50,946 nucleotides of DNA from a virus, in IMG/VR virus record IMGVR_UViG_3300045996_003405, positions 1 to 50,946 of that record; one strand, 5' to 3'. Made by a program: the position numbers and the translations under genes. This document shows, piece after piece, positions 730-50,475 of this stretch. How positions within the stretch are numbered: the first letter of the stretch is position 1; each line of letters begins with the position of its first letter. Under the pieces are notes generated by a model, which saw only the letters and a program-made list of their open reading frames with translations, was not told the DNA's origin and made no database searches.

Positions 730-807
<78 letters not shown>

Positions 808-988: not shown

Positions 989-2161
989 TTAATATGATCC
1001 GGAAAGTTTATAACCATTAGTTCCCCCACTATTATCGCTTTTAGGAATCCATTTACCATATCTTTTTAATATCATTTCGGCATTCGCATGCCCCATTTGT
1101 CTTGCTACCCACATAATATTTTCACCATTACTTAATAATGTCGAAGCAAAAGTGTGACGCATTTGATAGCAATTCCTATATGGTATATCCATCTTTCTAA
1201 GCATAGTGCGCCACTTTTCAGAAACTACGTCACTACTGCTATATGGCAAATTAGTATTATCATTATTAAAAATAAACTCATTAGTCTTAGTATATTGCAA
1301 TTGGCTTTTCAGGGCTTCAAACGCTTTAGGTAATAAAATCATTTCTCTCAGGCTATATTCATTCTTTGTCTTATTAAACTCACCCTCTACTTTACCCCGA
1401 TCAATAGTAATAATTTTTCTTTTGAAATCAACATCTGTCCATTTCAAGGCAATTAATTCACTGGTTCTAAGTCCAGACCAAAAGCCAAATTGAACTAAAT
1501 TTTTAAATTGACCAGTAGCCTGATTGATTATCAGTGTTTTTTCTTCTTCATTAAAAGGATGAGCTACATAATCTGATTTCTTGCCTACCTTCGTTGTAAC
1601 CCTGGTGCGGTCGAGCTGCTCAATGGGGCTTTTTTCAATTAACCCATCATTAATAGCCTCAAGAAACATAGTTCTTAATACACTGAGATTATTGCGTATA
1701 GTTTTAGTTGTATTTTTGAGATTCATCATCCAATCTTTTATTATGCCTGACGTTAATTCCTTAACATAATATTTACCAAAGGCTGGGATTAAGACTCCAT
1801 TAATCACACTCTTATACCCTCTGAGAGTCGATGGCGAAATTTGTTTATTTTCTTTCATCTGTATATAATTAGACAAAAGTTTATCTAAATAGTATTTGCA
1901 GGTTGAAGTAATAGGATGCTCTACAAAACCCGCATTAATTGCTGTTTTTGAATTAGGAAAATATTCAATATAATTAAACTCATTACGTGCAATCTTATTT
2001 AATATCTCAGTACGTAAATTTGCACAATACTTAATGTTTTGCTTACTTGGGCTTAATTTAATTGATTCACGATATCTTTGGTTGTTATACATAAATATAA
2101 TCCGTAAATATTTGCCACGTATCTCTACCCCTTGAGGCATATCAAATGCATTTATATCCAT
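989..2161 (-). CDS. Tyrosine integrase, copy 1
   Basis: This 390-residue site-specific recombinase is the one nearest attL. Residues about 10-60 form an arm-type DNA-binding domain, about 85-170 a core-binding SAM-like domain, and 200-390 the catalytic domain. Visible catalytic residues are Arg232 (GLRTSELIAL), Arg335 (YQMRHTFAS), His358 (QMGHAN) and the nucleophile Tyr368 (LKRYGKW). The usual His of the HxxR motif is Tyr here, a known variant. It should catalyse integration at tRNA-fMet and, with the excisionase, excision. It is a close paralogue of the next gene. No good ribosome binding site precedes the start, so it may depend on translation from upstream genes in the same transcript. Confidence 0.95.
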   Translation of the reverse strand: MDINAFDMPQGVEIRGKYLRIIFMYNNQRYRESIKLSPSKQNIKYCANLRTEILNKIARNEFNYIEYFPNSKTAINAGFVEHPITSTCKYYLDKLLSNYIQMKENKQISPSTLRGYKSVINGVLIPAFGKYYVKELTSGIIKDWMMNLKNTTKTIRNNLSVLRTMFLEAINDGLIEKSPIEQLDRTRVTTKVGKKSDYVAHPFNEEEKTLIINQATGQFKNLVQFGFWSGLRTSELIALKWTDVDFKRKIITIDRGKVEGEFNKTKNEYSLREMILLPKAFEALKSQLQYTKTNEFIFNNDNTNLPYSSSDVVSEKWRTMLRKMDIPYRNCYQMRHTFASTLLSNGENIMWVARQMGHANAEMILKRYGKWIPKSDNSGGTNGYKLSGSY

Positions 2162-2198
2162 AATTTTACTTTCATTAAAATATTAATAATTGAGCTTA

Positions 2199-3371
2199 TT
2201 ACTGATAATTACCAATAAATTTGTAACCATTATTTTCAGCTTTAGGTATCCATCTACCATACCGCTTAAATATCATCTCAACATCTACATGCCCCATTTG
2301 CGTTGCAACCCATAGTGGATTTTCACCATTAGATAATAACGTGGATGCAAAAGTGTGACGCATTTGATAACAATTACGGTACTGGATATTTTTAATAGTT
2401 GATAGCAGTTTTCGCCAGGCATCTGATACTTTATTACTACTAGCCCATGCCCTATTAGTATTAGGATTATGAAACACATATTTGCTGCTATAAGTATGAG
2501 ATAATTGATTCTGTAAAGCTGCAAAAGCTTTTGGTAATAAAATTAAAGTCCGCTTTCCGGCTTTAGTTTTTGTTTTGTTTCTCTCTACATTGCAAACCTT
2601 AGTATCATGAATACTAGCAGTTTCTTCTTCAAAGTTAATGTCAGCCCATTTTAGGGCAATTAATTCGCTAGTTCTAAGCCCTGACCAGAATCCAAATTGA
2701 ATAAGGTTTTTTATCTGCCCGCTGGCAGCATCAATAATAGTTTGCTTCTCATTGTCGTTAAATGGTTCTGCGTTAAACTCTGATTTTTTAGATGCTACTT
2801 GAATTAATTTACTCAAAGCAATTTTTTCAATTGGATTGTCTTTGATTAAATCATCATTTATAGCATCGGCAAACATATTTCTTAATGGTGTTAGATAGTT
2901 TCGTATAGTTTTAGGAGTTGCTTCCAAAGAGGCGATCCATTCTCGGATAACTGGAGCCGTTAGTTCATTAATATTATATGAACCAAATGCGGGTATTAAT
3001 TGCCCTATGATTACTTTGCGGTAGCCCGCAAAAGTTGATGGTGACATGTAGTCATTTTCTACCATTTTAGTATAATTGCATAATTGCTGTTCGAATAGGT
3101 CATTGCATTTGTAGCTCTTTACTTCTTCGATTATACCTAATCGTTTTGCCAATCGTGAATCAGGGAAATACTCAGCATAATTAAATTCGTTCTTAGCAAT
3201 TTTATTTAATATTTCCCCTCGTAAATTGGCAGCATACTTAATATTTATTTTCGTAGGTTGCAAATTTATAGTTTCACGGCATCTAATACCATTAAACATA
3301 AATACTATCCTAAAAGACTTGCCACTATCATTAATTACAATGCCTGGTGGTGTCAAGTTTGCTCGATCCAT
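2199..3371 (-). CDS. Tyrosine integrase, copy 2
   Basis: This second full-length recombinase (390 residues) has the same domain order as copy 1 and long stretches of identity in the catalytic half. Catalytic residues are all present: Arg233, Arg338, His361 and Tyr371. The start is set by AAGGAG eight bases upstream of ATG. The leader and first codons (GGAGTAT then ATGGATCG) nearly match those of the third, truncated copy, showing that copies 2 and 3 arose by tandem duplication. Which copy drives integration cannot be told from sequence; both look active. Divergence in the N-terminal half suggests different arm or core preferences. Confidence 0.93.
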   Translation of the reverse strand: MDRANLTPPGIVINDSGKSFRIVFMFNGIRCRETINLQPTKINIKYAANLRGEILNKIAKNEFNYAEYFPDSRLAKRLGIIEEVKSYKCNDLFEQQLCNYTKMVENDYMSPSTFAGYRKVIIGQLIPAFGSYNINELTAPVIREWIASLEATPKTIRNYLTPLRNMFADAINDDLIKDNPIEKIALSKLIQVASKKSEFNAEPFNDNEKQTIIDAASGQIKNLIQFGFWSGLRTSELIALKWADINFEEETASIHDTKVCNVERNKTKTKAGKRTLILLPKAFAALQNQLSHTYSSKYVFHNPNTNRAWASSNKVSDAWRKLLSTIKNIQYRNCYQMRHTFASTLLSNGENPLWVATQMGHVDVEMIFKRYGRWIPKAENNGYKFIGNYQ

Positions 3372-3419
3372 TTTCTATACTCCTTAATTTTTACAAATAA
3401 TATGTCTTAACAGGTAGTT

Positions 3420-4040
3420 TTAACAGTTGTAATTGCCCACAAATTTATATTTACAATTATTATATTTAGGTATCCACCTTTCATATTGCTTTAATGTTAC
3501 TCCAACATTTTCATGCCCCAATTGAGTTGATACCCACGCTGGATGCTCACCATTAGATAATAAAGTAGCAGCAAATGTATGTCGCATTTGATTAAAGTGA
3601 CGGTATTTTATGTCTAACTTAGATAAGAGGTCTATCCAATTATCAACAAAATCACCGCTTGACCAGTGCTTGCCAGTATTGGGATTTTTAAATATATATT
3701 CACTATTTTTAATATTTTGTATTTGGCTGATTAAAGCTTGTAAAGCTCTTGGTAATAACACTATTGTTCGTATTTGAGATTTTAGGTTGGGTTCTCTTTC
3801 CTCACCAAATAATTTAACTCGACAAATGTATGCTACGTTTTCTTTAAAATCCACATCAGCCCATTTTAAAGCTATTAGCTCGTTAATGTTTAGTCCAGAC
3901 CAGAATCCAAATTGAATGATATTTCTAAGCTGCCCGGTTGCAGTGTCAATAATCATTTGCTGTTCTATCTCATTAAAAGGGTCAGGACTCCATTTATTAT
4001 TAATATCTACACCCTGTGGTGTTACGATTGCTCGATCCAT
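3420..4040 (-). CDS. Truncated, probably inactive integrase, copy 3
   Basis: This 206-residue protein starts with the same 15 residues as copy 2 and then jumps, in frame, to the catalytic domain at a point matching residue 204 of copy 2. About 182 residues are missing, including arm- and core-binding domains. Box I Arg is replaced by Asn51 (GLNINELIAL), while Arg153, His154, His176 and Tyr186 remain. Loss of the box I Arg should abolish recombination. The frame is otherwise open with a good ribosome site (GAGGAGTAT), so it may be translated and act as a partner or inhibitor of the full-length enzymes. Alternatively it is a young pseudogene. Confidence 0.8.
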   Translation of the reverse strand: MDRAIVTPQGVDINNKWSPDPFNEIEQQMIIDTATGQLRNIIQFGFWSGLNINELIALKWADVDFKENVAYICRVKLFGEEREPNLKSQIRTIVLLPRALQALISQIQNIKNSEYIFKNPNTGKHWSSGDFVDNWIDLLSKLDIKYRHFNQMRHTFAATLLSNGEHPAWVSTQLGHENVGVTLKQYERWIPKYNNCKYKFVGNYNC

Positions 4041-5004: not shown

Positions 5005-5155
5005 TATTTCTTCCTTTATAAATCTATTAGATTTTTTAATCATTTTTGCTCTTTAGCTTGGATTTTGATAGTCTTATAAACTTCAAACTTTGCTAAAATG
5101 ATTTCTCGTTATAGACTATGACAGCTTTTGTCAGGCATGACGAGTTTATGCCAGT

Positions 5156-5184
5156 ATTATCTCATAATGAGATATATTTGTCAA
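5156..5184 (-). promoter_or_regulatory. Leftward early promoter (PL-like)
   Basis: Read on the minus strand, a perfect TTGACA (5184-5179) is followed after exactly 17 bp by GATAAT (5161-5156). Transcription would start near 5149 and run into the unknown protein, HTH genes, excisionase and integrases. The 17-bp palindrome at 5158-5174 fills the space between the boxes, so a bound repressor would exclude RNA polymerase. Confidence 0.75.
5158..5174. promoter_or_regulatory. Repressor operator, left
   Basis: TATCTCATAATGAGATA is a perfect 17-bp palindrome with half-sites TATCTC/GAGATA spaced by five bases. The same half-sites and spacing occur at 11959-11975 upstream of the repressor gene. It lies between the -35 and -10 of the leftward promoter. 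A weaker relative, TATCTC-N6-GAGACA, lies upstream at 5192-5209, and a half-site near 5243. Confidence 0.75.
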
Positions 5185-5191
5185 GCTTAAT

Positions 5192-5209
5192 TATCTCCAT
5201 ATTGAGACA
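5192..5209. promoter_or_regulatory. Second, imperfect operator-like site
   Basis: TATCTC and GAGACA are spaced by six bases instead of five, with one mismatch in the right half. It lies 17 bp upstream of the first operator, so cooperative binding by repressor dimers is possible. Spacing and mismatch make it weaker than the other sites. Confidence 0.4.
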
Positions 5210-5680
5210 TTGATAAACTTGATTAAGTATTTGAACTTATATTGAGAAATTATTTGCATGTTTTTTGAGGGTATATATATCGTTATTATATGTAGATAAT
5301 ATAAAAATATTATAATTATATTAAGAATGAATTATTTAAGGTAGCATAGTTTAAATTACAGATTCGGATATAATTAGGAAGAAATTAAGCATCTTTAGTA
5401 GTTAAATTTTATTTTGAGGTGTGACGTTGGTAATAGCTTTATAGATAATTGGCAGAGTAAAGAAAATAACATCGAGAGAGCAAGAAGAGAAACAAACTAA
5501 GTAAAACTACTTATGTTAAATAGGTTTAAAAGGTTCACTTCTAAAATATGTTATTCACATATTTCTTGTCAGGACATAAACAAGGTAAAGCTACTAATAG
5601 TCAATAGATTTAAAATGTTCATTTCTAAAAATATGTTATTTACATATTCTCAGACATAAGTATAATCAAAACTAAAATAA

Positions 5681-5705
5681 TTAAATTACCAAATTTCGGG
5701 TATTG
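5681..5705. repeat. 25-bp box, copy 1
   Basis: These 25 bases are identical to 6044-6068. The box ends GGGTATTG on the plus strand. On the minus strand it follows the stop of the decayed regulator remnant, as copy 2 follows the stop of the intact PAS-LuxR gene. It marks the shared 3' flank of the two. Confidence 0.85.
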
Positions 5706-5747
5706 CAAATTAAAAAGGCAATACTGCTTATTTTAATTTACTGAAAC

Positions 5748-5840
5748 CTACATTTTTAAAATGAAATATTTTCTCGATATACTGGCTTTTTCAAGGATGG
5801 TGTTGAGAAAAAATGGTAGGGATAAATGCAACCTAATCTA
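5748..5840 (-). pseudogene. Remnant of a second LuxR-type regulator 3' end
   Basis: On the minus strand this stretch can be read to a stop at 5748-5750 as ...LEKASISRKYFILKM. This corresponds to the last helix of the intact regulator next door (LLEKASMLKLIPF). Upstream of it the frame fades within about 30 codons. The 25-bp box follows at the same relative place as in the intact gene, supporting a duplicated and decayed copy rather than chance. The alignment is short, so this is a probable call. Confidence 0.55.
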
Positions 5841-6043
5841 TCTGTACCAGAAATAATCATTTCTGGTACTATCAGAATAATACTTGGTGGATAATGAATT
5901 CTTTTTTTTCAATAAAAAAATTTTATAAAAAGGCGAAACAAACTAAAAAGATCCACTCAGAACTTAATGGATTAAGAAGGTTTGCTTCTAAAAATATGCT
6001 CTCACATATTTCTAAGGTAGGAGTATAAACAAATTTAAAAATG

Positions 6044-6068
6044 TTAAATTACCAAATTTCGGGTATTG
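6044..6068. repeat. 25-bp box, copy 2
   Basis: Exact copy of 5681-5705, lying immediately beyond the stop codon of the PAS-LuxR gene on the minus strand. A hairpin repeat unit follows it in both places. Confidence 0.85.
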
Positions 6069-6079
6069 AATCTTTAGCT

Positions 6080-7246
6080 TTAAAACCCTGGTAAAAATGG
6101 AATTAGTTTAAGCATACTTGCTTTTTCAAGTAATTGAGCCATGTTGAAAACCCCAAACTTTGGATACAATTGTTTATTAATAATGGCATTAATTGTTGCA
6201 GGAGCAAAAGGTTTACCTTCTATGATAGATAAAATTGCGGCAATGTCTTTGGGTGATTTATAAAGGGATAAATAATATAATGTTTGACTTTCTCTATTAG
6301 TAAGAGTTATATTTTTATCTAGCTCATTTATTTCTAATTTAGTTCCAGTTTTTTCATTTACTATTTTTATTTTAAATTTATTTATCATTTGTTGCATATC
6401 ATCAACAAAACGTATAAGTTCTTTTTGTGCATTCTTCTCTGCCATAAATTCATCTATTTCAAGTTGGAGTTTACTGGCCTCTTTTTGAGCAGTAATATCA
6501 ATAGAAGTACCAACTATACCTATAACATTACCTTTATTATCCAGTAACCTATTCTTAGCTGATAAATAAACCCGCTCTTTCCCTTTAAACATTGCACGTT
6601 CTTCACTTTCATGGGGTCCCTCCTGCCTTACTAAAGCATCCATTTTACTTATTTTACAAGCAATTTCTGAAGGGTATAAATCATAATCAGTCTTACCTAT
6701 AATTTCAGATCTATTCTTTGCACCAAACATATCCACCATATATTTATTACAACCTAAAATATGACCATCTTTATCTTTCCAATAGATACTAGCATTTACT
6801 ACGTCAATGATTTGTATGATTTTCATTTGCTCATTATTTACGACTTGTTGTTTTTCTTGTTCAATTAGTTTTTTCTGATCTGTAATATCATATGAAACTC
6901 CAGCTATTCCTATAACTTTTCCTTTACTGTCACGTAATTGTGTTTTGGTTGAGAAATATATTTTGTGTTCACCACTTGGTAAAGTAACATATTCTTCCCC
7001 AGTATAATTACCAGTCTCCATTGCCAAGATATCTGCTTCTCTAAGTTTGTTAGCATAATCTTTCCAACACAAATCATAATCAGTCTTACCTATTATCTCT
7101 GCTCTACTATTTACCCCAGCCATTTTCAGCATGTAATTATTGCATCCTAATATATGTCCATCTTTATCTTTCCAATAAATACTGGCACTGATTGCATCGA
7201 TAATTCTATAGCTACTTTCATCATCGAAATTAGGTTGATTAACCAC
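6080..7246 (-). CDS. PAS-PAS-LuxR-type transcription regulator
   Basis: This 388-residue cytoplasmic regulator has two tandem PAS domains (about 10-125 and 145-250). Each starts IYWKDKDGHILGCN and ends with the PAS-associated GIxGxSxDIT motif. A helical linker and a C-terminal LuxR-like helix-turn-helix follow (LTNRESQTLYYLSLYKSPKD to MAQLLEKA). The GTG start at 7246 is chosen because AAAGGAG lies seven bases upstream; an ATG further up would overlap the NRPS gene. It is the last gene of the SemiSWEET-NRPS operon, 25 bp after the NRPS stop, so it probably senses a small molecule or redox state and controls that operon. Its PAS domains resemble that of the kinase at 23790-25286. Confidence 0.85.
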   Translation of the reverse strand: MVNQPNFDDESSYRIIDAISASIYWKDKDGHILGCNNYMLKMAGVNSRAEIIGKTDYDLCWKDYANKLREADILAMETGNYTGEEYVTLPSGEHKIYFSTKTQLRDSKGKVIGIAGVSYDITDQKKLIEQEKQQVVNNEQMKIIQIIDVVNASIYWKDKDGHILGCNKYMVDMFGAKNRSEIIGKTDYDLYPSEIACKISKMDALVRQEGPHESEERAMFKGKERVYLSAKNRLLDNKGNVIGIVGTSIDITAQKEASKLQLEIDEFMAEKNAQKELIRFVDDMQQMINKFKIKIVNEKTGTKLEINELDKNITLTNRESQTLYYLSLYKSPKDIAAILSIIEGKPFAPATINAIINKQLYPKFGVFNMAQLLEKASMLKLIPFLPGF

Positions 7247-7271: not shown

Positions 7272-9926
7272 TTAGTAGGATTTAGTATACCAAGCAGATA
7301 GATTTTGGCAAATAAATTCAGTTTGTTCACATACATCATCATGTATTATATTTTCTAATTGGACTACTTTAATGTCTTCCCTGTTCTTTATAAAATGATC
7401 CAGATTATTAAATGGCAGTTTAGCTACATGACTATTTATATCATCGTGATTCTTTATAAATTCATTGGCATATTTTGCTGCTTTAAATAAAAATATTTTT
7501 GAGTAATGTAATGGATTAGATACTTTTTGATATACTAAATTTTGTTCACATTCAAAATTACTGATTAACTTTTCTGTATAATTTTCTAAATAGCCATTAG
7601 TTATATGATAAGAATATAATCTTTTCAAATCTTCTTTGGCTTGATTTAAAAAATATATAAGTGATTCATCGACCATCACTGTATCAAGAGAAGCTACCCA
7701 GATATTTCTAAACCCACGTTGTTCTAAGATACTAGCAATTTCTAAAGCAACTTGTCCGCCAAATGACCATCCGAGAAGAAGGTATGGATGTTTAGATTGG
7801 TTAGTTTTTTGCCTGATGTCATCTATAGCAGATAAATAAAGATTTGCTAATTTAGATAAGTTATCAATCTTATCAGTATTATTTAAATTATAGTTATCTA
7901 AACCATAACAACTATAAAATGAAGATAGCTGTTGTGCTAAAGGAATATATACCTCTGAACCAGCCATAGCCGGATGCACCATAAATAGATTTAGTTTGTC
8001 TGTTGTATCATTTAAATTACTAATAAGCAAAAATTCATTAGATTCTTTTATTAACGGTATTAGTTTATCCATTGTTTTAGCTATAAGAATATCTACAATT
8101 TTAATTTGGCACTTATATTTACTGTTTATTCTATTTATCAAACTCACGGCTAGTAAGCTATCTCCACCCAATTTAAAAAAATCGTCCTTGGTTCCTATTG
8201 CGTCAACTGGTATTTTTAATATTTCACTCCAAATATGACATAGCTCAATTTCTAGCTCATTATTAGGAGGTACATATTGACTATCTCGATCAATTTTATA
8301 ATTAAGTAAAGCAACTCGATCCAATTTTCCATTTAATGTTAAAGGTAAATTATCTAATGAAACCAAAATATTTGGAACCATGTATTCTGGAAGAATTTTG
8401 GATAAATAATTTATTATTTTTTCTTTAACTAAATTAGTTTCAGCAACATAATAACATATTAAGTATTTAGGCATTACCTCATTACGCTCTGTAGTATTAG
8501 TATGTTCTTTTACTAATACTACAGCATGTTTAATTCCTGGGTAATTCATTAAAGTGGATTCAATTTCTCCTAGTTCAATTCTAAAACCACGTATCTTAAC
8601 TTGAAAATCATTGCGCCCAATGTATTCAAGTTCATCCTTATCTAGATAACGAACCAAGTCTCCGGTTTTATATAATCTATTATTTTTGTTTTTTGTTTTT
8701 TCTTCTTTAGTTTGTAATGGATTAGCTATGAAGCATTTAGATGTTAGGTCTGGCAAATTTAAATATCCTCTAGCTAATCCAGTTCCCCCCAAATATAATT
8801 CGCCAACCTCTCCAGGAGATACTGGATTTAGTTCTTCGTCTAAGATATACCCTTTTATACTTGAAATAAATCTACCGATATTTGATTTATTTCCGACATC
8901 TACTTTAGTGATTATTTTATAAGTAGCATGTATAGTGGTTTCTGTTATACCGTACATGTTTATTAATTCAGTTGGAGTGTTTTCATATATCTTAAACCAA
9001 GGTTCTAATTGATTGAAATTTAATTTGTCCCCACCCAATATAACATATCGCAAACTATCTAGCTTAGTAAATTTATTGATAATATCTATAACTTGATAAA
9101 ATACATTTGGCGTCTGATTTAATATAGTAACTTTTTCTTTTTCACATAGCTTGTAAAATAACTCTACGTTTTTAGATACTTCACTTGGAACTACAACTAA
9201 TTTCCCTCCATAAAATAATGCACCAAATATCTCCCATACACTAAAATCAAAAACATAAGAATGGAATAAAGTCCACACATCATTATTTCTAAATTTATAT
9301 AAATCATTTGTAGCCTTAAATAATCCTACTATATTACCATGTAATTGTAGTACTCCTTTTGGGTTACCTGTAGTACCACTAGTATAAATTACATAAGCTA
9401 AATTAAGGTTTGTAACATTTATATTTAGATTAGTGATTGGATATTTCGCTAAATAATCTTGTAATAATTGATCGTCGATGGATAAAATATTACAGCATTC
9501 CATGTAGATTAGATTAGTCAGTGTAGAAGCAAGTCGTAAATTAGTTATAACTAATTTAGTTCTGGTGTCCTCTAAAATATAATTAATTCGATCTTTTGGA
9601 GCAGTATTATCTATAGGTACATATGCTCCTCCAGCTTTAAGAACTGCTAACATAGCTATTACCATAAATTCATCTCTATCCAAGTATAGTACAATTAAAT
9701 CCTCACATTTTACTAGATACCTTTCTTGTAAATAATATGCTAATTGATTTGCCAATTTATTTAATTTATAATAAGAAATACTAATTTTTTTATAAGAAAT
9801 TGCTATGTTATTGGGGCTTTCTACGACCTGTTTTTGGAATAATCCGTGGATTGTTTCGAACTGTTGATGATTTGGCTCAATAGCTTTATCGGAGCGAAAT
9901 GGAGGTTTGTGTATTTTTTTTAACAT
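7272..9926 (-). CDS. Single-module NRPS, A-T-TE, probable threonine activation
   Basis: This 884-residue enzyme has an adenylation domain (about 25-540), a carrier domain (550-620) and a thioesterase (640-884), but no condensation domain. A-domain cores are intact: LKAGGAYVPID, YTSGTTGNPKG, FDFSVWE, NMYGITE, YKTGDL and NGKLDR. The carrier Ser590 (LGGDSL) would hold phosphopantetheine. The thioesterase shows Ser721 (GWSFGG), Asp748 and His862. Hand alignment to GrsA gives specificity residues D227 F228 W231 N270 I296 G298 M324 I332 H333 K534, one conservative change from the known threonine code DFWNIGMVHK. It should load threonine and release it, or pass it to a partner. It is co-transcribed with a SemiSWEET-like gene and the PAS-LuxR gene. 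An NRPS is highly unusual phage cargo. Confidence 0.93.
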   Translation of the reverse strand: MLKKIHKPPFRSDKAIEPNHQQFETIHGLFQKQVVESPNNIAISYKKISISYYKLNKLANQLAYYLQERYLVKCEDLIVLYLDRDEFMVIAMLAVLKAGGAYVPIDNTAPKDRINYILEDTRTKLVITNLRLASTLTNLIYMECCNILSIDDQLLQDYLAKYPITNLNINVTNLNLAYVIYTSGTTGNPKGVLQLHGNIVGLFKATNDLYKFRNNDVWTLFHSYVFDFSVWEIFGALFYGGKLVVVPSEVSKNVELFYKLCEKEKVTILNQTPNVFYQVIDIINKFTKLDSLRYVILGGDKLNFNQLEPWFKIYENTPTELINMYGITETTIHATYKIITKVDVGNKSNIGRFISSIKGYILDEELNPVSPGEVGELYLGGTGLARGYLNLPDLTSKCFIANPLQTKEEKTKNKNNRLYKTGDLVRYLDKDELEYIGRNDFQVKIRGFRIELGEIESTLMNYPGIKHAVVLVKEHTNTTERNEVMPKYLICYYVAETNLVKEKIINYLSKILPEYMVPNILVSLDNLPLTLNGKLDRVALLNYKIDRDSQYVPPNNELEIELCHIWSEILKIPVDAIGTKDDFFKLGGDSLLAVSLINRINSKYKCQIKIVDILIAKTMDKLIPLIKESNEFLLISNLNDTTDKLNLFMVHPAMAGSEVYIPLAQQLSSFYSCYGLDNYNLNNTDKIDNLSKLANLYLSAIDDIRQKTNQSKHPYLLLGWSFGGQVALEIASILEQRGFRNIWVASLDTVMVDESLIYFLNQAKEDLKRLYSYHITNGYLENYTEKLISNFECEQNLVYQKVSNPLHYSKIFLFKAAKYANEFIKNHDDINSHVAKLPFNNLDHFIKNREDIKVVQLENIIHDDVCEQTEFICQNLSAWYTKSY

Positions 9927-10004: not shown

Positions 10005-10307
10005 TTAAGGGTATTTTGTAATCAAAGGATTTCTTTTTTTTGATGAAAAGCGATACCAGAGAATAAGTGCCGTTACAGTTGTATTTGTAATTAATGTAAA
10101 AGCGTAACCCATCATTAATAAAGTATCACTCCTTATAATGGCATGTAAAAAAATAAAAACACTTATTATATTAAAACCGGCAAATGTGAGTAAGGATACA
10201 TCGTCGGCATGCTTCGTTTTATAAAGTCTTATAATCTGGGGAATATATAAAACTGCATTAATAAACAAGCCGATTGAAAAAATGAATTCTATAAAAAATT
10301 TAATCAT
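10005..10307 (-). CDS. SemiSWEET/PQ-loop membrane transporter
   Basis: This 100-residue inner-membrane protein has three hydrophobic segments (about 5-27, 38-60, 66-88) and the PQ-loop signature YIPQIIRLYKTKHADDVS with Pro23-Gln24 in the first segment, followed by the DDVSLLTF stretch typical of bacterial SemiSWEETs. Such proteins dimerise to make a facilitator for sugars or other small polar molecules. AAAGGAAG precedes the ATG. It is the first gene after the dyad-containing promoter and lies 78 bp before the NRPS, so moving the NRPS product or its precursor is a reasonable guess, though the substrate is unknown. Confidence 0.85.
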   Translation of the reverse strand: MIKFFIEFIFSIGLFINAVLYIPQIIRLYKTKHADDVSLLTFAGFNIISVFIFLHAIIRSDTLLMMGYAFTLITNTTVTALILWYRFSSKKRNPLITKYP

Positions 10308-10456: not shown

Positions 10457-10741
10457 TCATTTATATAGCTCATTTTCCTGAATAACTGTACTTTTACAAT
10501 TATTCATTAATTCTTTGAGCTTAGATTGATATTTAGGATTAATTTTTTTGATAGCTTCAGCTTGCTCTGTCTTAGGTAATAACTCAGTGATCCGTTGAGC
10601 TTCGAATTTTATTAAAGAAGAATCTATTATTTCTTTAATTAAATTATTATAGTTTTGATTCAATTCAGACTCTGGTATCTGATTTCTAAATAATGCTTCA
10701 GCTTGCATCTGTATTGAAACAAATAGCAATAGTTCCTTCAT
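10457..10741 (-). CDS. Unknown small helical protein
   Basis: I do not recognise this 94-residue protein. It is charged and predicted helical, with a hydrophobic first 12 residues (MKELLLFVSIQM) too short for a firm signal-peptide call. A good ribosome site (GGGAG, eight bases before ATG) supports translation. It lies between the repressor and the SemiSWEET operon on the same strand but is separated from the latter by that operon's own promoter, so it is probably an independent accessory gene or the tail of the repressor transcript. Confidence 0.55.
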   Translation of the reverse strand: MKELLLFVSIQMQAEALFRNQIPESELNQNYNNLIKEIIDSSLIKFEAQRITELLPKTEQAEAIKKINPKYQSKLKELMNNCKSTVIQENELYK

Positions 10742-11282: not shown

Positions 11283-11930
11283 CTATAGCAATTTGCCTGA
11301 TAAATAAACTACTCGACCAATAATTTTTAATTCATCACTTTTATTAAAGTGTTTCTCAGGATAATCTCTATTTTCAGAACGAGCAATCAATTTATCAGTA
11401 CCTAATTCTTTATACATCTTTTTTATAAAAACCTCGTTATGAAGAGATATAGCATAAATCCGATTATCAACTATTTCAGTTTGTGAAGTATCTACAATAA
11501 TCCTTTGTCCATCCTGTAATTCTGGTGCCATGCTATCACCATGTACTTCAAACATGCAGAGGTTTTCTTCTTTCCAACCAAATCGTTTAATATCATTTAG
11601 TTCAACAGTATGATGCCGAATAATCTCCTGTTTAAATATATTTTGACCACAATCCGCAGATAGTATGTTTCCATATAATGGTATTTGCACTACAATTTCA
11701 TACTCAGTTGCGCCATTTTCAGCATCTAATTGACCAGGGCGTAATTTGAGCAATTGTTCCACTGTATGCGCAACTTTTGAACCGAATTGTCTGCTACCAT
11801 TTATAATCATATAATAAGGTGTGGGGCTAAGACCAAACTTTTTGGCAAATGCATTTACTGATCCATCAAAATGTTCTTCAATCAAGCGTAAGAAGTTCTT
11901 AACTCGAATTGAGCTAATTTTATCACTCAT
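11283..11930 (-). CDS. Prophage repressor, HTH + S24 peptidase (CI/LexA type)
   Basis: This 215-residue repressor has an N-terminal helix-turn-helix (about 10-60, SVNAFAKKFGLSPTPYY), a hinge, and a C-terminal self-cleaving S24 domain. The catalytic Ser133 is in HGDSMAP and the Lys at 170/171 is in FIKKMY. The probable cleavage site is Cys94-Gly95 (SADCGQ), as in UmuD, cut when RecA filaments form after DNA damage. TAGGAGG precedes the ATG. The gene sits beside the operator at 11959-11975, and the same operator lies in the leftward promoter, so the protein should hold both arms off in the lysogen and release them in the SOS response. Confidence 0.93.
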   Translation of the reverse strand: MSDKISSIRVKNFLRLIEEHFDGSVNAFAKKFGLSPTPYYMIINGSRQFGSKVAHTVEQLLKLRPGQLDAENGATEYEIVVQIPLYGNILSADCGQNIFKQEIIRHHTVELNDIKRFGWKEENLCMFEVHGDSMAPELQDGQRIIVDTSQTEIVDNRIYAISLHNEVFIKKMYKELGTDKLIARSENRDYPEKHFNKSDELKIIGRVVYLSGKLL

Positions 11931-23153: not shown

Positions 23154-23588
23154 ATGCTTCATGCATCAAATATTTTACAACAATCTTTACCATTTGACAA
23201 GAATTCAGTAGATAAAAAATTTACAGACCTTATTAATGGTATTTTAAATCAATTAAAAGAAGAAAAATTCGATAAACTTTTAGATTCAACAATCAAACAG
23301 ACCCCGTGTAATTCCAGAAGAAAATTAATTAATGGTATGATAAAAGGCAGATGTGAAAACTTTGATTTAAAACCACCAGTATCAAATGGTTACTCTCAAA
23401 TCAAAAAAGAAAGATTAAAAAACTTAACGCTTAATGAGCAATTTTATTTATTGGCACATATAGATTTTAAATCAATTGATAATTGGACTAATCCCAGACC
23501 AGATAACCTAAACTCAGAATTTGTTAGTATAGTACAATCAATTATCAGTGAGAAATTGTTAAAATTAGTTGATAATTTCACTTATTAG
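23154..23588 (+). CDS. Cassette protein A, unknown family
   Basis: This 144-residue protein is of unknown function and clearly paralogous to the protein at 25547-25966. Shared features are the start M(L/F)HASNIL, spaced KFxDLxNxxLxQL helices, a GRCxxxDxxP motif in the middle and NLTxNEQFYLLAHxD near residue 105-120. It is helical, without a signal peptide or membrane segment. A strong AAAAGGAAA precedes the ATG. It has its own promoter and structured leader within the portal-protease cargo block, next to the hybrid kinase gene. Confidence 0.75.
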   Translation: MLHASNILQQSLPFDKNSVDKKFTDLINGILNQLKEEKFDKLLDSTIKQTPCNSRRKLINGMIKGRCENFDLKPPVSNGYSQIKKERLKNLTLNEQFYLLAHIDFKSIDNWTNPRPDNLNSEFVSIVQSIISEKLLKLVDNFTY

Positions 23589-23789: not shown

Positions 23790-25286
23790 CTAAATAATAA
23801 CTATAGGTACTTCAGCAGCTAAACCTTTAGGCAGAATCTTGGTATTGGTATTTTTTGCTTGTTCTCGTATATCCATTTCATTGTAATGGCTGGTTACCAA
23901 AATGGAGTTTTTAACCTGAGTTTTTTCAATTATATTAATACCAGTTAAATTTTCAGTGAATAATTCATAATCAGTTAATAAGAATATTCTGTCTTTTTCT
24001 TCCTCACTTTTAGACAATACAAAATTAATAGCATCACTACCTTTGTCAAAATGTTTGCATTCTATTTTAGGTGTTATTACTTCAAATTTACTTTGCCAAG
24101 CTGCATGGATGGATGGTTCATCATCGAGAATTACTAATATACTATTTGAAGAGATTTTTATCTGATTGCAAATCCAATTTGGTATAGCAGTTTGTGGAAA
24201 TGTCACAATTATTTTAGTACCCATATCTGGTTCAGATTCAATAGCTAGACTTCCACTGTTGCTATTTAAAGTATTATTTATTTGTGTAAAACCAATGCCG
24301 TGCCCAGAGTACTTACCTGAAGTTACTGCTATATTTTTTAAAATCTTATCTTTAACCAACTCAGACATGGATTTACCATTATCTTTAACAATTATTTGGA
24401 TATACTTGTCATCTATATTATTTAATTGGATTTTAATAAGTCCAGATCGATTTTCTAAGGCATCTACTGCATTATTAATAAGATTTGACATCATTCGCTT
24501 AAGGTCTGATATATTGCCGTTAATAAAAGTAAAGTAGCTGTTATGGCTAATATTTGTAACAAACTTAATTTTTAAATGACTATACTCGTACCTTTTTTCA
24601 GCAATGATCTCTAAAATAACTAATGATATTAACACGGCATCGCTTTTAACGTTATCTTGATTATCTTTATCGGGCACTTTAGCTTGGTTTAATAAATTAC
24701 GGGAAATATCATAAATTCTGGATACTGCCAGGTTTAACATATTACGCTGATTCTCAGGTAAGACTGCGCATTTGGGTACTAAAAAATTTAATACCATTAG
24801 TGGGGAGCCAATATCATGGACTGCCTGATCTACAATAGTCTTAAATTGCTGCTGTTGCTCAATTTTTTGCTGTTGAATTTGGTATCTTAACTGTTCTGCT
24901 TCTTTTTGTGCCGTAATTTCTATAGACGAACCAATTATGCCAACCACCTCATTACTATTATCAGCAAATAGGGGAGAACGAATAGCTGTAAAGTACCGTG
25001 TTTTACCTGTAGTAATATCCTGTATAGCGTCTTCTTGAGAAAGAGTAGACTTTGTTTCTATAACTTTTTTCACATGTTCTATAATATTATCTGCTATTTC
25101 TCGTGGATAATAATCATATGGACTTTTACCTATAACATCTTCTGGAACTCGGGCTCCCATCGCCTCTAAGCAGCTTTGGTTAGCACCTAAGACTTTTAAA
25201 GTAGCTGTATCACCCCAATAAATAGGAAATGGAATAAAAGGCGCGACTTGTTCTAAGTATTGGATAATATGAGGCTTCTTCTCCAT
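23790..25286 (-). CDS. PAS hybrid sensor histidine kinase
   Basis: This 498-residue cytoplasmic kinase has a PAS domain (about 15-130), a coiled coil, a HisKA-type dimerisation domain with His157 (AVHDIGSPL), a HATPase domain (N-box NLINNAVDA with Asn272, DNG at 302-304, GHGIGF near 330) and a C-terminal receiver with Asp388/389, phospho-acceptor Asp439, Thr465 and Lys487. It has no transmembrane segment, so it senses an internal cue. The PAS shares PYDYYPREIAD-like and GIxGSSIEITAQKEA motifs with the PAS-LuxR regulator at 6080-7246, suggesting common origin and perhaps a shared signal. It lies on the minus strand between the two paralogous cassettes. Confidence 0.9.
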   Translation of the reverse strand: MEKKPHIIQYLEQVAPFIPFPIYWGDTATLKVLGANQSCLEAMGARVPEDVIGKSPYDYYPREIADNIIEHVKKVIETKSTLSQEDAIQDITTGKTRYFTAIRSPLFADNSNEVVGIIGSSIEITAQKEAEQLRYQIQQQKIEQQQQFKTIVDQAVHDIGSPLMVLNFLVPKCAVLPENQRNMLNLAVSRIYDISRNLLNQAKVPDKDNQDNVKSDAVLISLVILEIIAEKRYEYSHLKIKFVTNISHNSYFTFINGNISDLKRMMSNLINNAVDALENRSGLIKIQLNNIDDKYIQIIVKDNGKSMSELVKDKILKNIAVTSGKYSGHGIGFTQINNTLNSNSGSLAIESEPDMGTKIIVTFPQTAIPNWICNQIKISSNSILVILDDEPSIHAAWQSKFEVITPKIECKHFDKGSDAINFVLSKSEEEKDRIFLLTDYELFTENLTGINIIEKTQVKNSILVTSHYNEMDIREQAKNTNTKILPKGLAAEVPIVII

Positions 25287-25546: not shown

Positions 25547-25966
25547 ATGTTCCATGCATCAAATATTTTACTACAATCAAACAAGTTAGATAAAAATTCA
25601 GTAATTAATAAATTTAATGATCTTGTCAATAATGTTCTAGGACAACTTAACACAGAGCATTTAAACAGATTAATTGATTCAGCTACTAAATATATTCCTG
25701 CAAACGCCAGACCAGATTTAATTGATGGAATAGTGAGTGGCAGATGTAGATCATTGGACTTTCGCCCTTTAACAACTAATAGTAAGTTTAAAGAGCAACG
25801 TGTGAAAAACTTAACCATTAATGAACAATTTTATTTGTTGGCACATTTAGACCTGGAAAGAATATACCCTAAGATAGGAAAGCTAAATCCAGACTTTATA
25901 AGAACATTGCAAATAGTTATTCGGGATTATTTTACTGATGCGGAAAGTGACATGAATTTTGAGTAA
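25547..25966 (+). CDS. Cassette protein B, unknown family
   Basis: This 139-residue protein is the paralogue of cassette protein A (23154-23588). It keeps MFHASNILLQ, the GIVSGRCRSLDFRP motif and NLTINEQFYLLAHLD, and differs mainly at the C-terminus. AAAAGGAAA precedes the ATG. The kinase gene lies between the two copies on the other strand. Function is unknown; paired copies with conserved control regions suggest dosage or partner roles rather than virion structure. Confidence 0.75.
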   Translation: MFHASNILLQSNKLDKNSVINKFNDLVNNVLGQLNTEHLNRLIDSATKYIPANARPDLIDGIVSGRCRSLDFRPLTTNSKFKEQRVKNLTINEQFYLLAHLDLERIYPKIGKLNPDFIRTLQIVIRDYFTDAESDMNFE

Positions 25967-26435: not shown

Positions 26436-27821
26436 TCAGTACTCTGGCCATATTAAACTACGGTTAAATTTAACGGTTTTATTTCGCTTAAATATATTAA
26501 TAATATTATCGTCAGCAAATCGCATTTCTTTTAATAAATTAATAATTAAAATTAATCTTAATGTTTCCGCATAATCATAGATCTTTTGTTCATTAATTGG
26601 AGATCCTTCGATTTGATCCCAGTGAGTGTAATAATTTCTTAAGCTACATATGTTAGTTATAAATTTATCGTCGGTTATAATTGTCTGTGTGAGAATATTT
26701 TGCGGAATGTGTGTTATTAATTCTTTAAGTCGCTGCATTAAGGATGGTTCATAAGCATATTTCATTTTGCTAGTTAGAGCATATTTTATTTTACCAATTA
26801 GCTTATTATTGAGTTTTTTAGTCTTTTCTTTTTTTAATACATTTTTTAGGCAAAGAATATATGGCTCAATTGCATCTTTTGGTATATACTCATTATTTTT
26901 AAACTTTCTATGAAATGTCTCAACCATTTGGATAGATTGAGAAAACCTTACCTCTAATGGTATGGCATAATCAACTTTTAATAAACTTTTAAAAATGTAT
27001 CCTATAACTTTAAGTTTTTCTTTATTTTCAAACCACCATTGAAGAATTCGAACAAAATCATTTTTAATATTTGTATATGTAACTAGAAATAGAGAAGAAT
27101 TCGTATTATTATATTCAATTGGTCTATTCAATACATATGAAATATCTTCTTGTGAATTTGAATGACAAGAAATATATGGTAATTGAATTGGCTGATAATA
27201 ACAAACTGATAAAAAAGTAATAAGCCAATTTATAGAATTTAATAATTCATTAAAATCTTCTGCCTTATTTTTATATAATTTTATAAAGCTATCCTCTTTT
27301 ATATTATATCCAGAGGGGTTGGAATTACATGTGTACTCAGATTTTATTTCAATATTTAGACCTACCGTATCCAGAGAAATTTTTAATATCTCAGGTGTTG
27401 TATAAACCATAGTTAGATTATTTACATCAGGCTTTACTGTAAACGGATCGATGCCCATCCATTTATTCAAATAATTAACTGGTATAGAGATTGCATCAAA
27501 TTTAATAGATTCATTTTGGTTAAAATGATAGCCAATAAAAGCTTCATTAAAATTATATTTCGTAACAATTGAACCAGGATAAGAGCAATTTTTCGAGTGC
27601 TCAATTACTCCAGTTAGTGTTATTTTTTTGCCATTTGTCGTAATACCATTTATAAAATCATGCTTATGAATTAGGTTTGAAGGCGGGGCGTTAGAAAAGT
27701 TTCCCATAATTTCTAATAAATAAGATCCATTTTTTTCTTGCAATATCTTTCCGTAAAATTTATCATCAGTGTTTGGAATATTCCACTCACCGTAATAATC
27801 TGCAATACTTTCTAATTTCAT
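26436..27821 (-). CDS. ApeA-like HEPN anti-phage protein
   Basis: This 461-residue protein resembles the ApeA family of abortive-infection ribonucleases. The N-terminal part (about 8-130) has the ApeA N-terminal pattern (YYGEWNIP, LEIMGNFS, a hydrophobic IGYHF strand). The C-terminal part is a HEPN domain with the catalytic Rx4H motif RNYYTH, Arg395 to His400, and a following helix LRLILIINLLKEM. HEPN enzymes of this kind cut RNA on phage infection and stop growth. GAGG lies eight bases before the ATG. It reads against the late operon immediately upstream of the protease gene, as a lysogen-expressed moron protecting the host from rival phages. The family call rests on pattern memory. Confidence 0.75.
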   Translation of the reverse strand: MKLESIADYYGEWNIPNTDDKFYGKILQEKNGSYLLEIMGNFSNAPPSNLIHKHDFINGITTNGKKITLTGVIEHSKNCSYPGSIVTKYNFNEAFIGYHFNQNESIKFDAISIPVNYLNKWMGIDPFTVKPDVNNLTMVYTTPEILKISLDTVGLNIEIKSEYTCNSNPSGYNIKEDSFIKLYKNKAEDFNELLNSINWLITFLSVCYYQPIQLPYISCHSNSQEDISYVLNRPIEYNNTNSSLFLVTYTNIKNDFVRILQWWFENKEKLKVIGYIFKSLLKVDYAIPLEVRFSQSIQMVETFHRKFKNNEYIPKDAIEPYILCLKNVLKKEKTKKLNNKLIGKIKYALTSKMKYAYEPSLMQRLKELITHIPQNILTQTIITDDKFITNICSLRNYYTHWDQIEGSPINEQKIYDYAETLRLILIINLLKEMRFADDNIINIFKRNKTVKFNRSLIWPEY

Positions 27822-32955: not shown

Positions 32956-34119
32956 TTATTTAACTTCTTCATAATCATTAGCTGTAATATAACACTGCGG
33001 AATATAATAAATCTCATTATTTATGTCGATATTAAAATTTGGAACTAACATTTTTGCAGGGATAAAGACTTGACCATTTTCATTTTTATGAACTGGCAGT
33101 TGCCCATTTATAATACCTGATAAGTTATCTGGATTATATAGGTAACAATTTAACTTCGAAAAATTTGTTCCTTCAATACCTTGAACTGCTAAATTTCCTC
33201 CAATTTTCAAGAATAAATCATCATGAGTAATTTTAGATTGAGTCTTGCAATAGTTATAGACTTTTTCAACAAATGACTTAGTTAATTTAAGTTTTTTGCC
33301 AAAATTAGAACCGGAACCCTGAAATCTGTCATGTCCTCTAACTATAAGTTCGCCCATCTTTTCGTATGGGTTAAAATATCTTTGCAAATCAAAATTTCCG
33401 AGCATACTCCCATTACATAAATCTAATAAAATTGAATAAAAATGAAATAATGAATCTTCTTTAAAATTAACGGTAGTTGTCCCAGTGCTATATTGCAAAA
33501 TGTCGTTATTATTTAAACAACGTATATGGTCTATATTACCACAGTGGTATATGAGGCCTTCATTTAAAATTACAATCAAATTTGGCCAACTCTCTCTATG
33601 ATTCTGTGCTTCCCATTCTTTAATATTTTTTTCAATAGACTTCAAGGAATTATTAGCTAGAGAATAAGCAAAAATGATACCAACTGGTCTTTCTCTAATA
33701 ACTAAGTTAATGTTGCCAGGTGTCATACGATATATTTTATCTTGAGGATTAAGAGATTTTACAGATTTTATATTTTCTAATCCTTCAATTAACTTCTCTT
33801 TGGATAATTCAGATTTTACTTCTACTATTCCATATACCGATTCAATAGGAAAAACTTGAATATTTTTACTTGCTAATAACGGTGTAAATTCTAATTGATT
33901 AAATATTATTATATCTGTTTGTTTGGATACCTCTTGACATGGGGAAATAATTTCACCAGTACCCAATCCATATTTTTTAGGTAACATCTTTTGCAAAAAA
34001 AAATACAGTTGATCTTCTCTGTAATCACCTTTATTTCCATTATGACTTATGTGCTTTGACTTTTCAAATTCTCTATTTAAATCTTCAGTAGCATACTTAA
34101 AAATTTGTTTAATATCCAT
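32956..34119 (-). CDS. DUF6602-like predicted nuclease (cargo gene)
   Basis: This 387-residue protein shows the N-terminal pattern of DUF6602 proteins, which have a PD-(D/E)xK-like fold: GDYREDQLYFFLQKMLPKKY with Glu35, QTDIIIFN with Asp69, and FPIESVYGIVEVKSEL with Glu100 and Lys102. These fit a restriction-type active site (D...ExK). The C-terminal half is unrecognised. It lies on the minus strand between tail-terminator and sheath genes, converging on the upstream gene with only 6 bp between, so it is an inserted moron, likely a defence gene active in the lysogen. The nuclease call is inference from motifs. Confidence 0.7.
   Translation of the reverse strand: MDIKQIFKYATEDLNREFEKSKHISHNGNKGDYREDQLYFFLQKMLPKKYGLGTGEIISPCQEVSKQTDIIIFNQLEFTPLLASKNIQVFPIESVYGIVEVKSELSKEKLIEGLENIKSVKSLNPQDKIYRMTPGNINLVIRERPVGIIFAYSLANNSLKSIEKNIKEWEAQNHRESWPNLIVILNEGLIYHCGNIDHIRCLNNNDILQYSTGTTTVNFKEDSLFHFYSILLDLCNGSMLGNFDLQRYFNPYEKMGELIVRGHDRFQGSGSNFGKKLKLTKSFVEKVYNYCKTQSKITHDDLFLKIGGNLAVQGIEGTNFSKLNCYLYNPDNLSGIINGQLPVHKNENGQVFIPAKMLVPNFNIDINNEIYYIPQCYITANDYEEVK

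Positions 34120-50429: not shown

Positions 50430-50475
<46 letters not shown>

Follow-up and report, generated by a model that had tools for sequence, protein, structure and literature searches.

A prophage cassette combining an A-T-TE nonribosomal peptide synthetase, a PAS-PAS-LuxR regulator and a structured RNA array: a putative signal module

The window, that is, the whole stretch of DNA analysed here (50,946 nucleotides), is one whole IMG/VR record, IMGVR_UViG_3300045996_003405. It contains a complete prophage of 49.7 kb, the borders of which, together with the genes framing its cargo zone, are:

762-807, plus strand: attL, a 46-bp core in the 3' end of a tRNA-Met gene (730-806) and an exact repeat of 50430-50475
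989-4040, minus strand: three adjacent tyrosine integrase genes (989-2161, 2199-3371 and a truncated copy at 3420-4040), mutual repeats, all three with a Phage_integrase match
11283-11930, minus strand: S24-type phage repressor (Peptidase_S24), at the right border of the cargo zone
50430-50475, plus strand: attR, an exact copy of 762-807

The element has each of the features that mark a prophage, namely att repeats, integrase, repressor and structural genes, and between the att sites it encodes replication, terminase, portal, head and baseplate functions. The window also holds a tRNA-Ser gene. Because the exact 46-bp repeats lie on either side, the peptide synthetase gene considered below is inside the prophage and not in flanking host DNA; its location between integrase and repressor, as given in a preliminary description made from the sequence alone, is confirmed. 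The terminase, used alone as a query, found no relative in viral contigs.

Over the left flank of the prophage (49-807), identity to contig C278 of G002, a low-GC Burkholderiales MAG of 1.6 Mb, amounts to 97-99%, so the host, a bacterium of freshwater type, is a very close relative of that organism. Its family, represented by 23 genomes of 0.9-3 Mb, is rich in genes for nonribosomal peptide synthetases (NRPS), with a match at E <= 1e-40 in 15 of the 23 genomes. An ApeA-type HEPN anti-phage defence gene is encoded on the minus strand within the structural region of the prophage (26436-27821), and an ApeA-like ORF, with 26% identity, is also found beside the tRNA-Met site in G002 (L076, 1181-2482). 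A DUF6602 protein, possibly defence or nuclease-like cargo, is encoded among the head genes on the opposite strand (32956-34119, minus).

The cargo zone contains four genes in the order 94-amino-acid protein, SemiSWEET-like transporter, NRPS and PAS-PAS-LuxR regulator:

10457-10741, minus strand: 94-aa protein with no assigned function; copies that are 66-69% identical occupy the same place in two related bacterial genomes (L005 and L006, the latter being a locus of G002)
10005-10307, minus strand: SemiSWEET-like PQ-loop membrane protein (PF04193, SemiSWEET), conserved in L005, L006 and a further host-family locus, L084
7272-9926, minus strand: A-T-TE NRPS of 884 aa, assigned by Pfam, NCBIfam and motifs, with the threonine-like code DFWNIGMIHK
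8325-9839, minus strand: adenylation (A) domain of the NRPS, residues 30-534 (PF00501 and PF13193)
8085-8243, minus strand: carrier (T) domain of the NRPS, Ser590 (PF00550 and motif)
7317-7988, minus strand: thioesterase (TE) domain of the NRPS, Ser721/Asp748/His862 (PF00975 and motifs)
6080-7246, minus strand: PAS-PAS-LuxR (HTH) regulator; PAS assigned by Pfam, VqmA the best PDB match over PAS and HTH

The NRPS was matched by the Pfam families AMP-binding (E 1e-76), AMP-binding_C, PP-binding (8e-13) and Thioesterase (4e-14), and by the NCBIfam amino-acid adenylation domain TIGR01733 at 406 bits against a cut-off of 317; the Pfam search of the 884-aa protein found no condensation domain. Motif reading places the A-domain core motifs, the carrier serine within GGDSL, and the catalytic residues of a type-I TE (the serine within GWSFGG, with its aspartate and histidine) all in place, so that neither the A nor the TE active site is disrupted, and the active sites are kept in two homologues of equal size that are 65 and 68% identical. 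The threonine code of A domains is DFWNIGMVHK. When located by motif anchors, the specificity positions of the phage enzyme and of both homologues agree with this code at nine of the ten positions, the tenth being changed from V to I, and the A domain is therefore predicted to be threonine-type. The preliminary description, which had read the same intact domains without a condensation domain and, by hand alignment, a specificity one conservative change away from threonine, was accurate on these points. It had also called the enzyme stand-alone, and this does not hold: the NRPS is the third gene of a conserved four-gene cassette accompanied by a structured RNA array, and the cassette occurs outside phages as well.

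With the NRPS alone as query, protein scans of genome and viral collections returned no relative, and a three-sequence NRPS scan of viral contigs likewise gave no match. NRPS matches in a phage collection were at most 37% identical and were set aside; where annotated, they probably come from bacterial contigs that had been entered as phages.

The regulator gene probably starts at a GTG (7246-7244) seven bases past AAGGAG and 25 nt past the NRPS stop codon; the 71-nt overlap with the NRPS that results from taking the longest ORF is probably spurious. Pfam leaves no doubt about the two PAS domains, and towards its C-terminus the protein has a divergent HTH of LuxR type that aligns with VqmA; the L084 homologue of the regulator matches GerE at 2e-10. 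The protein thereby has the combination of PAS and LuxR/GerE HTH that characterises VqmA-type receptors. By sequence, its best matches among solved structures, extending over both PAS and HTH, are entries for VqmA, the quorum-sensing receptor of DPO (6ugl, 6ide and 6kju). The E value is 2e-6 when the phage protein is searched by itself and 3e-16 with the family profile, and the VqmA of phage VP882 (7dwm) ranks next in the profile search. Entries 6IDE, 6KJU and 7DWM are named as DPO-bound VqmA (PMC8284805), and 6ugl is the same protein as the VqmA entries, as judged by its alignment. A single-sequence model of the regulator was poor (pLDDT 35), and the model used for the structure search was built from an alignment of seven sequences (pLDDT 72). 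It retrieved generic tandem PAS folds (DosP, FixL and MmoS) and did not single out VqmA, so the fold comparison leaves the sensed ligand undecided and the link to VqmA rests on sequence. Heme, flavin and redox are also among the cues read by PAS domains. The regulator, as sole query, found no relative in viral contigs.

Downstream of the regulator lies a region of about 660 nt without long ORFs that is 74% conserved with L006. It contains:

6047-6064, minus strand: box ACCCGAAATTTGGTAATT, an exact 18-bp match upstream of unit 1, candidate operator
5925-6013, minus strand: structured RNA-like unit 1, two hairpins (covariance model R1, 83.1 bits; folding z -4.0)
5844-5869, minus strand: hairpin GTACCAGAAATGATTATTTCTGGTAC, an inverted repeat with pairing kept by changed bases in L005 and L006, as judged by eye
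5684-5701, minus strand: box ACCCGAAATTTGGTAATT, an exact 18-bp match upstream of unit 2, candidate operator
5567-5651, minus strand: structured RNA-like unit 2 (R1, 81.5 bits)
5479-5566, minus strand: structured RNA-like unit 3 (R1, 93.9 bits), conserved with L006 and L005

The three tandem units, each of about 88 nt, fold into two hairpins, the 5' one short and the 3' one longer, and several copies are followed by a T run. Folding z scores of seven unit copies range from -1.8 to -6.8. Over eight copies, 94% of the cells are paired, as against at most 51% when the partners are slid, and five pairs have changes on both sides, a count for which the shuffle control is weak (53 of 500). No Rfam family matches the units. 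The covariance model built from the unit copies matched at the three cassettes (phage, L005 and L006) and, in the 23 family genomes, at one further strong place; around a unit at G001:C1:241219 (46.8 bits) there is no PAS gene. The box occurs twice in the window where 0.12 copies are expected at up to three mismatches, and its 17-base core, among 105 loci, is confined to these cassettes, with units and core recurring together at all three. A conserved structured non-coding element thus adjoins the putative receptor gene, and the adjacency of a receptor gene and a small-RNA gene is the vqmA-vqmR layout. Past the PAS-LuxR gene of L084 there is an unrelated tandem triplet of folded units of about 137 nt (z about -6). 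The interpretation of 5043-6080 as decayed gene copies was rejected on account of the conserved folds.

The gene order of the cassette is identical in L005 and L006. To these copies the 94-aa protein is 66-69% identical, the SemiSWEET-like protein 78-83%, the A-T-TE enzyme 65-68% and the regulator 79-80%. The layout is operon-like, the gap between NRPS and regulator being about 20-25 nt across the cassettes (25 nt in the phage and 21 nt in L006). No phage structural genes were recognised among the scanned flanking genes of L005 and L006.

The pairing of a synthase with a PAS sensor extends well beyond this cassette. It was first pointed to by a Legionella lytica locus in which a cyclodipeptide synthase (CDPS) gene overlaps that of a PAS regulator. 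An alignment of the phage regulator with this CDPS-linked PAS protein (L003), containing PAS-regulator sequence only, identified ten bacterial loci in a genome scan; a viral scan with PAS sequence gave one contig, and an NRPS or CDPS was directly beside or fused to the PAS gene in all eleven. In L005 and L006 the neighbour is the A-T-TE enzyme; in L007, L008 and L009 a TE-ended NRPS is followed by a PAS-kinase; and in L011, L012 (Legionella saoudiensis) and L014 a CDPS gene lies directly upstream of the PAS gene. In the remaining two, L010 (Candidatus Megaira) and L013 (an alphaproteobacterium), PAS-kinase and CDPS form a single ORF (7983-9812 and 7986-9812, respectively). The opposite order, CDPS followed by PAS-kinase, is found within the host family in the fused ORFs of L100 (2012-4813) and L101 (1739-4276), each preceded by a SemiSWEET gene. 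The CDPS assignment of the divergent proteins is firm by profile (PDB CDPS 5ocd, E 2e-70).

The host family has further pairings. The L084 locus has the order SemiSWEET, CDPS, PAS-LuxR; in L102/L037 a single-PAS LuxR protein overlaps an alpha-oxoamine synthase; and in L041/L103 another such protein follows a reductase-ended NRPS. The L037 enzyme was considered as CqsA-like and rejected, since its nearest relative is PRK07505, with CqsA and LqsA far behind. Among the 20 closest host-family PAS-LuxR homologues, eight follow a synthase and the other 12 look like orphan sensors. In L098 and L099 a SemiSWEET gene is followed by one for a 420-aa protein and then by a PAS-kinase gene. The two 420-aa proteins (L098 4034-5299 and L099 4367-5629) are related to each other, have no Pfam match and are candidates for a new synthase type. 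On the contig from the viral scan, L104 (IMGVR_UViG_3300019776_000933), a methyltransferase-containing NRPS overlaps a PAS-PAS-kinase, which is followed by a LuxR-type response regulator. Phage genes and a small HTH-like gene lie some 0.8-1.5 kb away; because the contig ends inside the NRPS, it is a supporting case and no proof. Synthase and putative receptor are thus encoded together in the three cassettes and fused in homologues. This comparative evidence is the strongest for the module: a functional tie between synthase and sensor is the only ready explanation for fusions that occur in two orders and in different classes, and we infer that the synthase and sensor of the phage cassette are cognate. 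The argument is limited by the 12 orphan-like homologues and by the CDPS-linked PAS protein in the alignment used for the genome scan.

We consider it moderately likely that the cassette is a prophage-carried signal module: a threonine-derived signal would be produced by the NRPS and detected by the PAS-LuxR protein, with the RNA array as output. The preliminary description finds support both in its guess of a signal function and in its intact threonine-type A-T-TE enzyme on a prophage, the threonine specificity being predicted. In such a module the A domain would activate L-threonine and the carrier domain would hold it, the TE would release a small threonine-derived product, and the SemiSWEET-like protein may move this product, the SemiSWEET family being known for sugars. 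The PAS-PAS-LuxR protein would act as cognate receptor and transcription factor, as VqmA does for DPO, and the loaded regulator would act at the ACCCGAAATTTGGTAATT box to switch on transcription of the structured RNA array. The array RNAs may then set host or phage gene expression, and an effect on lysogeny would be one way in which the cassette could benefit the phage.

The absence of a condensation domain leaves several options for the product: dimerisation or cyclisation of threonine by the TE, transfer to a small acceptor, a host NRPS acting in trans, or reaction of activated threonine with an amine. A lone A-T-TE enzyme could, for the same reason, merely load and hydrolyse threonine unless partnered. 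Since a CDPS takes the place of the NRPS in sibling cassettes, a dipeptide-type product such as a diketopiperazine would be our first guess. Among stand-alone single-module NRPS enzymes, AneB (PMC10720950) has one module that is loaded with a single amino acid and passes it to a small acceptor; its last domain is a C domain and its products are fungal terpene esters, whereas the phage enzyme ends in a type-I TE.

The most serious alternative is that the cassette makes an effector for the lysogen (a toxin, a siderophore part or a host-modifying compound) and that the PAS-LuxR protein merely sets when it is made, following oxygen, redox or some other cue and not the product. Biosynthetic clusters commonly hold regulators, a site between integrase and repressor is what lysogenic-conversion cargo would have, and heme and flavin sensor PAS folds were the top structure matches. 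However, it is not evident why pathway-specific regulation should entail synthase/PAS fusions in both orders and in different classes, or a constant PAS sensor family beside interchangeable types of synthase; moreover, the regulator is nearest to VqmA by sequence, and tailoring, export and immunity genes are absent from the clusters, the SemiSWEET gene excepted. On balance we regard this explanation as unlikely. A variant closer to the signal module would be DPO-like chemistry, in which a free amine such as aminoacetone captures the threonyl-adenylate or thioester. This would lead to the threonine counterpart of N-alanyl-aminoacetone and to a hydroxyethyl-pyrazinol, which the VqmA-like receptor would sense. 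Adenylate-forming enzymes that release aminoacyl-AMP to aminoacetone do yield DPO (PMC12930378), and the receptor is VqmA-like, but the intact carrier and TE domains suggest thioester release and not a leaked adenylate; we rate this route as improbable.

We see only a slim chance that the cassette is passenger DNA, trapped from a bacterial chromosome and unused by the phage. The low GC content of the cargo zone (26-30% versus about 34%) would fit such an origin, as would bacterial copies whose flanks hold no recognised phage structural genes. Against it, no damage is seen in any of the four genes or in the RNA array, and all are still conserved relative to copies that are 65-80% identical, implying selection. 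Furthermore, the NRPS of the close host relative is only 68% identical to that of the phage, whereas the flanks are 97-99% identical, so the phage copy represents a separate, older lineage and not a recent capture.

Phage-borne quorum sensing is already known, and a link between CDPS and PAS domains was noted in 2018. Like the phage regulator, VqmA of the Vibrio VqmA-DPO-VqmR system and the VqmA of phage VP882 are receptors with PAS and LuxR-type HTH, matched by sequence over both domains. DPO is threonine-derived, VqmA has a small RNA output, its target VqmR (PMC12930378), and VP882-like phages read host-made DPO through VqmA (PMC12802170). Unlike these systems, the phage cassette has two PAS domains, a dedicated NRPS in an operon-like cassette and three RNA units, and no Qtip was identified. 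Phaeobacter prophage LuxI/LuxR pairs control lysogeny (PMC13345283), and in these and in arbitrium the prophage likewise carries both signal synthesis and receptor; the signals there are acyl-homoserine lactones or ribosomal peptides, in contrast to the NRPS A-T-TE and PAS receptor of the cassette. Skinnider 2018 (PMC5767969) observed that CDPS genes often have PAS domains nearby and raised quorum sensing as a possible role, a remark that leaves out the NRPS A-T-TE, the SemiSWEET partner, the fusions, the RNA array and phage carriage. We found no description of pairs of NRPS A-T-TE and PAS receptor, of synthase-PAS fusions, of the SemiSWEET partner, of the RNA arrays or of phage carriage of these in the open-access literature, which is weak evidence of novelty.

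A second PAS sensor is encoded elsewhere in the prophage:

23790-25286, minus strand: PAS-histidine kinase with a receiver-like C-terminus (Pfam)

Its PAS domain is 70% identical over 170 aa to that of the PAS-LuxR protein of the host family that follows the reductase-ended NRPS (L103), which suggests that the prophage kinase could listen to a host signal. More tentatively, and with the balance of our judgement still against it, bacteria and phages may share a general class of signalling systems built from a dedicated PAS sensor and, beside it or fused to it, one of several interchangeable small-molecule synthases (A-T-TE, multimodular NRPS, CDPS or alpha-oxoamine synthase). A SemiSWEET-like transporter would often accompany the pair, as would tandem regulatory RNAs where the sensor is of LuxR type. 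The prophage would communicate by one such system, possibly for the lysis-lysogeny decision, and listen to a host NRPS signal through its PAS kinase. Should the proposed signal circuit be real, phages would carry quorum-sensing-like circuits that run on nonribosomal peptides and fit synthase, receptor and RNA output into a cassette of a few kilobases. The synthase-sensor fusions would then offer a direct way to find unknown signals and pair them with receptors in hard-to-culture bacteria, and it would be understandable that Megaira, this Burkholderiales group and other bacteria with small genomes retain peptide synthases.

Two related small proteins, beginning MLHASNIL and MFHASNIL, are encoded on the plus strand on either side of the kinase gene (23154-23588 and 25547-25966). 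A Candidatus Bandiella plasmid (L002) has, flanked by Tn3 elements, an NRPS plus thioesterase gene that is 34-35% identical over 91% of the query.
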